DNA from: Planctomycetales bacterium 71-10
GTDB lineage: Bacteria > Planctomycetota > Planctomycetia > Isosphaerales > Isosphaeraceae
Length of the DNA stretch: 64,000 bases
Direction: 5' to 3'
NCBI GenBank assembly: GCA_001898385.1
Contig: MKTT01000081.1
Coordinates: 1 to 64,000 of the forward strand
Below the pieces are notes generated by a model. The model did no database searches, was not told where the DNA came from, and worked only from the letters and a program-made list of their open reading frames with translations. Positions 1,417 through 55,612 of the stretch are shown here, one piece after another; within the stretch, counting starts at the first letter, position 1; each line of letters starts with the position of its first letter. Position numbers and translations under genes: made by a program.

Positions 1417-3051
1417 ATGCCCCGAACCGCGAGACTGTGGAAAGGTGCCGGGCTGCTGACCCTGGGCGGCATTTTGCTGTCCGGGTCCGCGTCGCGCGGC
1501 GACGACGACGCCGCCCCGCCCGTCCACCAACAGCTGACCGAACTCGGCCGGCAGGCGCTCGCCAACGGCGCGGGCGGGATGGCGCGGTCCTTCTTCCAGA
1601 AGGCGCTCGAGCTCGCCCCCGGTGACGCCGACGCGACCAAGGGCCTCGAAGAGGCCAGGGCCTCGCAGCGCCGCCTCGTCGAGCGGATCGCCCTCCAGGA
1701 TCCGGCGACCCCGCCGCCCCCGGCCCCCGAGGCCGGCGCGCAGCCGACGCCCCCCCCCGCCCCCGACGCCGGCCCCAACAACCGCGCCACGCTGGAAGAG
1801 TCGGAACGCGCCGACGCCATCGCCCAGCAGCAGCTGACCAGCGACGTCCGCCAGCGCATGACCGCCGCCCGCGAGCAGGCGAACAAGGGCCAGATCGAGG
1901 CCGCCCTGGACGCCAACCGGCTCGCCCGCAACGTCGTCCAGTCGGCCACCAACGTCCCCGAGTCCGTCCGCAACCAGCTCCTCCGCGAGCTCCAGGCCCA
2001 GTCCCTGGACCTCCTCCGCAACGAGGAGCGCATCGTCAACGAGCGAATCGAGCGGCAGCGGCTCGAGTCGGCCGCCGAGCAGCGCAACCGCGGCCTCTCG
2101 CAGCTCACGCAGAACGAGCAGACCATCAAGGCCATGATGGAGCAGTTCGACGCGCTGATGGGCGAGGGCGTCTACAACACCCTGTACAACGGCGGCATGG
2201 GGAACATCGCCCTGGCCACCGCGCCGTTCTACGAGGCCCGCCTGCTCTCCCAGCACGCCCGGTCGCTCATGCACAAGGGGACCCTCCCCTACAGCGACGA
2301 GGATCCGGCCCCCTACGCCGGCATGTTCGTCTCCACCACCATGGGCTTCCTGTCGCAGGAGAAGCAGTTCGAGGAGCTGAAGGAATACCGCTTCATGCTC
2401 ACGATGCAGGACGTCACCCGCGCGGCCGTCCCCTTCCCCGACGACAAGATCATCGAATACCCCGACGCCAACCTGTTCCGCATCATGTCCGAGCGACGCA
2501 TCGCCCGCTACGGCAAGGCCGTGGACGTCTTCGACCGCGACCCCAAGACCAAGGCCATCCTCGCCAAGCTCGACGAGCCCCTGGCGATGAACTTCCCCAA
2601 CGAGACGCCGCTCGAGGACATCCTCAAGTACGTCAAGCAGGCCACCCAGACGCCCCAGGACAACGGCATCCCCATCTACGTCGACCCCATCGGCCTGAAC
2701 GAGGCCGACAAGACGATGACCTCGCCGGTCTCCATCGACCTCGACGGCGTCCCCCTCAAGACCACCCTGCGCCTCATGCTCAAGCAGCTCGGCCTGACCT
2801 ACACGGTCAAGGACGGGTTCCTCATGATCACGTCGCAGGAGTCCGAGGACCAGCAGACCGACATCCGCGTCTACCCCGTCGCCGACCTCGCCCTCATCCC
2901 CATGTCGCTCATCATGGGCGGCGGCGGCGGCATGGGCGGTATGGGCGGCGGCATGGGCGGCATGGGCGGCGGCATGGGCATGATGTCCATCCCGGTCGTC
3001 CCCACCCAGGACGACCCCGCCGGCGCCCTCATGCAAAAAAAAAGCAACTGA
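1417..3051 (+). CDS. Exported protein with secretin-like domain, N-terminal half of a frameshifted gene
   Basis: This frame gives 544 residues. A signal peptide (MPRTARLWKGAGLL...GSASRGDD) is followed by a helical, Gln/Arg-rich segment with TPR-like character (about 40-300). Residues 391-475 resemble a secretin/TonB short N-terminal (STN) domain: a PLEDILKYV-type helix, then PVSIDLDGVPLKTTLRLML and a TVKDGFLMIT strand. A Gly/Met-rich run (MGGMGGG repeats, about 501-525) comes next. The open frame extends upstream to 1105, but that part has no homology-like character; ATG 1417 has GGAGA at 1403-1407 and a signal peptide. The frame stops just after an A9 run, while the -1 frame stays open to 4349. 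Exact function unknown; likely a cell-envelope protein found in planctomycetes (inference). Confidence 0.75.
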   Translation: MPRTARLWKGAGLLTLGGILLSGSASRGDDDAAPPVHQQLTELGRQALANGAGGMARSFFQKALELAPGDADATKGLEEARASQRRLVERIALQDPATPPPPAPEAGAQPTPPPAPDAGPNNRATLEESERADAIAQQQLTSDVRQRMTAAREQANKGQIEAALDANRLARNVVQSATNVPESVRNQLLRELQAQSLDLLRNEERIVNERIERQRLESAAEQRNRGLSQLTQNEQTIKAMMEQFDALMGEGVYNTLYNGGMGNIALATAPFYEARLLSQHARSLMHKGTLPYSDEDPAPYAGMFVSTTMGFLSQEKQFEELKEYRFMLTMQDVTRAAVPFPDDKIIEYPDANLFRIMSERRIARYGKAVDVFDRDPKTKAILAKLDEPLAMNFPNETPLEDILKYVKQATQTPQDNGIPIYVDPIGLNEADKTMTSPVSIDLDGVPLKTTLRLMLKQLGLTYTVKDGFLMITSQESEDQQTDIRVYPVADLALIPMSLIMGGGGGMGGMGGGMGGMGGGMGMMSIPVVPTQDDPAGALMQKKSN

Positions 3052-3076
3052 GCGGCCTCGGGGCCGATCGGCCCCG
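3035..3076 (+). promoter_or_regulatory. Candidate -1 frameshift / slippage site
   Basis: Nine consecutive A residues (3035-3043) sit in a G+C-rich gene. In the zero frame they place A-AAA-AAA in the phase needed for simultaneous -1 slippage. The zero-frame stop TGA is at 3049-3051. A 7-bp hairpin, CGGGGCC-GATC-GGCCCCG (3059-3076), begins about 15 nt downstream. The -1 frame is open from the slip site to 4349. Either ribosomal frameshifting or transcriptional slippage on A9 would work; a homopolymer sequencing error is the alternative. Confidence 0.6.
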
Positions 3077-4349
3077 CCCCTCGACTGACACCGCGCGGGA
3101 TCCGTCCGGCCGAAAGGCGGCGGATCCCGCCGGCGTTTCGAAGCCGGCCGACGCCGAGCCCAAGGTCCGCCTCGCCCCGTCCGGCCGCGAGGGCCTCATC
3201 CCCATCACCGGCGGCACCTCCGCCCGGCCCGCCGCTGCGGGCGACCCCTACGCCTACTGGTCCAACTACTTCAAGAAGCACGACGAGACCCCCAACCAGC
3301 TCCACGAGACCATCCGCCTGCTCAACCAGAGCGGCAAGACGAAGGACGTCCACGCGGCGCTCCTGGCCTACCTGAAGAACCGCCCGAAGGAGGCCGAGTT
3401 CTGGATGTACGAGGCCCTCGGCCTGGCGATCGAGATGAACGGCGGCAAGCCCGAGGACGTCCACAAGGCGCTGGACAACGCCGCCGACATGGCCCTGCGG
3501 ACGCACAACCCCAACCACCTCGTCAGCGCGGCCGACAAGCTCCTGCTCAAGGGCCACACCGACCGCGTCGGCCCCCTGCTCGACGAGGCGATGCCCAAGG
3601 TGCCGCACCGGGCCGAGCCGATCCTGATGTCGATGATGCTGGCCCAGAAGGTCCGCGACCCCAAGCGGATGGCCGACTCGGTCGAAAGGCTCCTCGCGCT
3701 GGGCTGGCCCGGCCAGGACGACTACTTCCGCGCCGAGGCCCGCAAGCAGGCCGACGCCCTCGGCAAGGCGCTGCGGGAGGAAGGCCGGACCGACGAGGCC
3801 GAGACGCTCGCCGCCGCCCTCCCCGCCTCCGAGTCCCGCGACCTCTTCATCCGGCTCACCTGGGACGGCAACGCCGACTACGACCTGATCGTCGAGGAGC
3901 CCCTGGGCGCGACGGTCTCCCGCGACATGCCCCGCTCGGTCTTCGGCGGGGCCCTGCTGAAGGACGGCAAGGGGAGCCGCCCGGAGGAGGTCTACGCCTG
4001 CCCACGCGGCTTCGACGGCGACTACACGATCCGCATCATGCCCGTCGTCGACGACCCGGCGAAGCCCTCCACCCGCCTCTCCCTGGAGGTCGTCGCGCAC
4101 GACGGCACCGCCCAGGAGCAGAAGAAGTCGTACTCCCTGGTCCCCAACGACCCCAAGGCCAAGCCGGTCGTCGTGACGCTGAAGGGGGGCCGGCGCGCCC
4201 GGGCCCTCCCCTTCGTCAGCAGCACGGCCGTCCGCGACGCCGTCCAGGAGGTCCTCGAAGAGCGCGCCGAGAAGGCCCGATCGAAGAAGTCCGTGGGGGA
4301 GCCCGGGAAACCCGAGGCCGCGCCGAGGAGCGCCGTCCCCATCCGCTGA
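3042..4349 (+). CDS. C-terminal half of the frameshifted exported protein (TPR-like plus DUF2135/YfaP-like domain)
   Basis: This frame is open from inside the A9 run and has no good start codon of its own before the first ATG at 3405, which is well inside conserved-looking sequence (DPYAYWSNYFKKHDETP). It encodes 435 residues after the slip; joined to the upstream frame the product is 977 residues. A linker of about 60 residues is followed by helical repeats of TPR type, then a beta domain starting LTWDGNADYDLIVEEP, which resembles the DUF2135/YfaP family (recognised by eye). The Lys/Arg-rich tail ends at 4349. It is best read as the second part of the gene at 1417 rather than an independent gene. 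Confidence 0.7.
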   Translation, partial: KQLSGLGADRPRPSTDTARDPSGRKAADPAGVSKPADAEPKVRLAPSGREGLIPITGGTSARPAAAGDPYAYWSNYFKKHDETPNQLHETIRLLNQSGKTKDVHAALLAYLKNRPKEAEFWMYEALGLAIEMNGGKPEDVHKALDNAADMALRTHNPNHLVSAADKLLLKGHTDRVGPLLDEAMPKVPHRAEPILMSMMLAQKVRDPKRMADSVERLLALGWPGQDDYFRAEARKQADALGKALREEGRTDEAETLAAALPASESRDLFIRLTWDGNADYDLIVEEPLGATVSRDMPRSVFGGALLKDGKGSRPEEVYACPRGFDGDYTIRIMPVVDDPAKPSTRLSLEVVAHDGTAQEQKKSYSLVPNDPKAKPVVVTLKGGRRARALPFVSSTAVRDAVQEVLEERAEKARSKKSVGEPGKPEAAPRSAVPIR

Positions 4350-55451: not shown

Positions 55452-55612
55452 AAAAAAAACGGCCGCCGACCCCAACCGGGTCGCGACCGTTCCGCCATCA
55501 TCCCGGACCGACTCGGCCTTGCCAGTGCGACGTCATCGCTATCCCCCTCAAGGTTGGGGCGGGAGCGCCGGCGTTCTTGCTTTCGCCGGCCATTTCGGGG
55601 CTCGCCGCCATC
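55452..55612 (-). ncRNA. Candidate small RNA or attenuated leader upstream of the DUF4912 gene
   Basis: A promoter at 55643-55615 (TTGACA, 17-bp spacer, GTATCC) is followed by about 160 nt ending in a near-perfect hairpin (ACGGTCGCGACCC, 55490-55478, with GGGTCGGCGGCCGT, 55472-55459) and then eight T residues. An inner stem GCCGGCG...CGCCGGC is also present. The DUF4912 gene lies 180 bp beyond the terminator. Either it is an independent sRNA, or the hairpin attenuates that gene. A 31-codon frame with no ribosome site lies within. Confidence 0.55.

Follow-up and report, generated by a model that had tools for sequence, protein, structure and literature searches.

The window analyzed here, a 64,000-nt stretch of contig MKTT01000081.1 from Planctomycetales bacterium 71-10, contains on its forward strand a gene whose coding sequence changes frame by −1 at a run of nine A residues (A9), which forms the junction. 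In the features listed below, family f1 is the Isosphaeraceae and family f2 is probably the Planctomycetaceae.

1417-4349, forward strand: gene split by a −1 frame change, with the A9 run as the junction
1417-3051, forward strand: zero-frame ORF for the short form of 544 aa, ending in QKKSN before the stop; conserved in f1 and f2
3035-3043, forward strand: candidate A9 slippage site; exactly A9 at 96 of 97 readable junctions, with variable flanks
3049-3051, forward strand: zero-frame TGA directly after A9; a zero-frame stop lies ≤21 nt from the run in 43/43 f1 and 50/53 f2 cases
3059-3076, forward strand: hairpin C-GGGGCC-GATC-GGCCCC-G with 7 bp and a GATC loop, 16 nt downstream of A9
3045-4349, forward strand: −1 frame extension of 434 aa comprising a linker, a TPR solenoid and a DUF2135-like beta domain

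Across A9, the zero frame of the window reads ATG CAA AAA AAA AGC AAC TGA with the stop ending at 3051, and the −1 frame is open from well 5' of A9 to 4349. The first ATG, GTG or TTG codon of the −1 frame is at 3405 and lies within conserved sequence. These data confirm the initial annotation, according to which the A run joins two frames, the second of which lacks a start of its own. Adding one A to A9 gives a reading frame of 2,934 nt, i.e., 977 residues plus the stop; the 434-aa extension is reachable only via one such extra A or a −1 ribosomal shift.

The C-terminal part of the gene is present in 44 of 45 Isosphaeraceae genomes and in 384 of the 398 genomes of the class; the locus was found in Aquisphaera insulae, a cultured species that carries the A9 site, and in an Isosphaeraceae MAG. 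We read the junction in 44 f1 and 53 f2 species, giving 97 junctions that are not independent observations because related species share ancestry. In 43/44 f1 and 53/53 f2 species, the C-terminal frame is offset by −1 from the N-terminal frame, and the A's at the junction number exactly nine. A few short contigs lack the N-terminal part but still have A9 ahead of the C-terminal part, and one f2 contig (G305) ends ahead of the site. The lone exception is a locus (L173) in a 64%-complete f1 MAG (G064), in which ten A's at oriented positions 2439-2448 fuse the two frames; genus mates of this MAG carry nine A's at the junction, and its A10 may represent an assembly error or a real change. Another apparent exception (L158) was rejected, as an N gap displaces the frame and A9 is present. 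Because the assemblies of 96 species agree, a sequencing error at A9 is ruled out, and the run is real, as initially assumed. A pseudogene is likewise ruled out because the two parts are conserved and purifying selection acts on each (pN/pS among congeners of 0.30-0.35 for the N-terminal part and 0.49-0.63 for the C-terminal part). The conservation of the A run and both frames across the Isosphaeraceae and f2, with split frames and A9 in 96 species, supports the earlier proposal of one gene with two likely products.

Single-frame homologues that lack the A run, which would have spoken against the initial annotation, were absent from f1 and f2 and occurred only in other families. Among the 11 single-frame relatives read from four families (f3, f4, f5, and f7), each has one open frame and none has an A run of ≥7; these homologues show how the fused protein is built. 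Where the class survey gives lengths, the open frame of the C-terminal part measures ~450-660 aa in f2, whereas families f3, f5, f7, and several others mostly have ~1,320-1,620 aa, with shorter frames for loci at contig ends. In family f6, sampled by one genome (G041), this gene also shows a −1 split but has no A9 (L072, oriented positions 232-420), and the split may represent two genes or another recoding event. In a tree of the C-terminal part, f1 and f2 each form one clade (100% bootstrap) and are placed apart, and the split state requires two changes on this protein tree. A joint f1+f2 clade was not rejected (AU test, P = 0.08). There may have been two gains of the split or one gain and one loss.

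Long A/T runs in GC-rich genomes are improbable without selection (PMC1088944). The 7.73-Mb assembly containing the window (158 contigs) has only three A9 runs, both strands counted together. Apart from the one described here, one belongs to a terminator with T9 on the other strand, and one either marks the extreme 5' end of an unrelated ORF or lies immediately before it; neither of the two joins frames. A9 runs are also rare in other Isosphaeraceae: among 24 genomes counted, 23 have 4 to 41 A9 runs and one has 87; higher counts, up to 78, were found in some f2 genomes. That 96 species have A9 where the two frames of this gene meet is more than expected by chance. The majority of A9 runs in an f3 genome (G047) read GAAAAAAAAAT, suggesting a dispersed repeat. 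The window also contains an A8 run at 55452-55459 beside GC-rich sequence, which is possibly a minus-strand terminator and for which a frame-joining role was not seen.

The length of the run is conserved, but its codon phase is not; there are three phases and one length. Relative to the zero frame, A9 is in phase 1 in 41 and in phase 2 in 2 of the f1 junctions, and in phases 0, 2, and 1 in 44, 6, and 3 of the f2 junctions, respectively. Apart from a T in f1 that the neighboring stop dictates, the columns beside A9 are variable, and the nine A's are invariant. The third frame is closed within 45 nt after A9 in 42/43 f1 and 50/53 f2 cases, compared with values for the same frame elsewhere in the gene of 0.21 in f1 and 0.32 in f2 and for the adjacent linker of 0.20-0.24 in f1 and 0.38-0.42 in f2. 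The positions of the stops after A9 differ between species. A third frame that closes this early would be expected if the run also gave rise to A8 or A11 messages, and a −1 ribosomal shift has no need of it. Among the new arguments for transcriptional slippage, this one carries the most weight.

Based on these sequence comparisons, A9 is very probably a programmed transcriptional slippage (realignment) site from which a short and a long form would be produced. RNA polymerase would slip on the nine-A tract, and the number of A's in the resulting messages would be 8, 9, 10, 11, or higher. Translation of an A10 message would run on into the 977-residue long form. With 8, 9, or 11 A's, translation would meet a stop within a few codons, since both other frames are closed immediately downstream of A9, and would yield the short form (~544 aa). 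Both forms would contain the exported TPR/STN-like part with a Gly-rich tail, and the TPR and DUF2135-like module would be present in the long form only. We infer that slippage takes place at A9 and that the two forms both accumulate; their ratio would be important in an envelope complex, as it is for tssM of Citrobacter rodentium.

Programmed −1 ribosomal frameshifting on A_AAA_AAA, in which the long form would be made from uniform transcripts, is an unlikely explanation, although ribosomal slippage could contribute alongside transcriptional slippage. Such slippage is possible because A_AAA_AAA is in frame within every A9, whatever its phase. However, the ribosomal route would tolerate runs of 7 or 8 A's or one ending in AAG, none of which is ever seen (the AAA AAA AAG variant is absent from every phase-0 case), so the invariant A9 counts against it. 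The hairpin 16 nt downstream of A9 in the window could act as a stimulator, and mean folding downstream of A9 is modestly stronger than in controls (z of −0.99 versus −0.10, based on mononucleotide shuffles and with many z values positive). However, neither the position nor the presence of this hairpin is conserved among relatives, and pairing probabilities across junctions gave no positional signal for a conserved 3' stem in a test that covers structures other than pseudoknots. Similarly, Shine-Dalgarno (SD)-like motifs upstream of A9 are not enriched (6/97 versus 42/451 controls), and the early closure of the third frame is unnecessary for a ribosomal shift. Of the initial suggestion that A-AAA-AAA slippage is combined with a hairpin, the heptamer and the hairpin themselves stand, but the stem is unconserved, the phase varies, and the AAG form is unused. 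Transcriptional slippage, which had been named as the alternative, is favored by the invariant length, the variable phase, and the closed third frame.

Phase variation, in which replication slippage would switch the DNA between A9 (off) and A10 (on), is very improbable. It would fit a homopolymer within a gene for an exported protein as well as the A10 with fused frames in the single MAG mentioned above, but A8 or A10 should be frequent in a tract that switches, and A9 is present in 96/97 assemblies. Two separate genes, the downstream one with its own start, can practically be dismissed: the window has an ATG at 3405 and some relatives have start codons soon after A9, but the −1 frame of the window has no start before 3405 despite conserved residues upstream of it, the distance from A9 to the first start varies from 4 to 406 nt among relatives, and A9 itself would be left unexplained.

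To our knowledge, transcriptional slippage with proven use in bacteria has been described for few genes (dnaX, mxiE, spa32, tssM, and IS elements). Slippage in vivo is efficient on nine A/T (PMC5009743), and slippage on nine A/T has been documented for Thermus dnaX (PMC5009743, PMC3711429), IS elements (PMC1088944), and Shigella genes. The closest analogue is tssM of C. rodentium and Yersinia pseudotuberculosis, in which transcriptional frameshifting occurs at A11 and in which each form, as well as the ratio of the two, proved important (PMC4256274). The A run of tssM lies just ahead of the zero-frame stop, as in the planctomycete gene; by default, tssM gives the short form, and added A's are required for the full-length long form, as would be the case for the planctomycete gene. 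However, tssM has A11 and is a different gene in a different phylum, whereas the planctomycete gene has A9, conserved in 96 species. Thermus thermophilus dnaX shares with the planctomycete gene a run of nine and a GC-rich genome, and it gives two length variants, as predicted for the planctomycete gene; in dnaX, slippage truncates a long zero-frame product, whereas it would extend a short product in the planctomycete gene. In IS-element transposases, two overlapping ORFs are likewise joined at nine A's (PMC1088944), but these are mobile elements, whereas the planctomycete gene is chromosomal, normally present once per genome, and found across whole families.

The GeneTack survey took in two planctomycete genomes (PMC3711429). 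We found no earlier report of the planctomycete A9 case in the open-licence PMC literature, and a description may exist elsewhere. The putative site is of a known kind and unusually widespread. We tentatively suggest that few programmed transcriptional slippage sites of non-mobile cellular genes are as widely conserved as this one, which occurs in two deeply separated families of planctomycetes, may have been gained twice, and has safeguard stops closing both unproductive frames right behind it. An A9 of fixed length in a single gene of at least 96 species provides a natural series for testing how slippage by RNA polymerase is set and selected. Also, for this protein family, databases probably contain many entries from these planctomycetes that are labeled as truncated or divided into two genes.

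The short form consists of TPR-like and coiled-coil helices, a segment similar to STN (secretin N-terminal), and a Gly/Met-rich tail; in our reading, its N-terminus resembles a signal peptide. The STN profile (PF07660) matched the short form with an E value of 6.7e-4 and 19.9 bits, which is below the cut-off of 28.4, and the predicted structure of the N-terminal part is poor (mean pLDDT of 51). A VWA domain is also found at the N-terminus in single-frame relatives and in f2 (e.g., E value of 6e-18). In the extension, the TPR solenoid matched TPR proteins using Foldseek (E value of about 1e-4). For the C-terminal domain, which had initially been called DUF2135-like, the PF09906 profile gave a weak match in 4 of 21 members (best E value of 0.0046) and no match to the protein of the window itself. 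The protein may have a role in an envelope complex. Finally, locus L002 (G000:C148) encodes an ECF sigma factor-like protein with a C-terminal STN-like domain that shares 70% identity with the window protein over residues 372-477 of the latter; based on this similarity, the two proteins may share a signaling partner.
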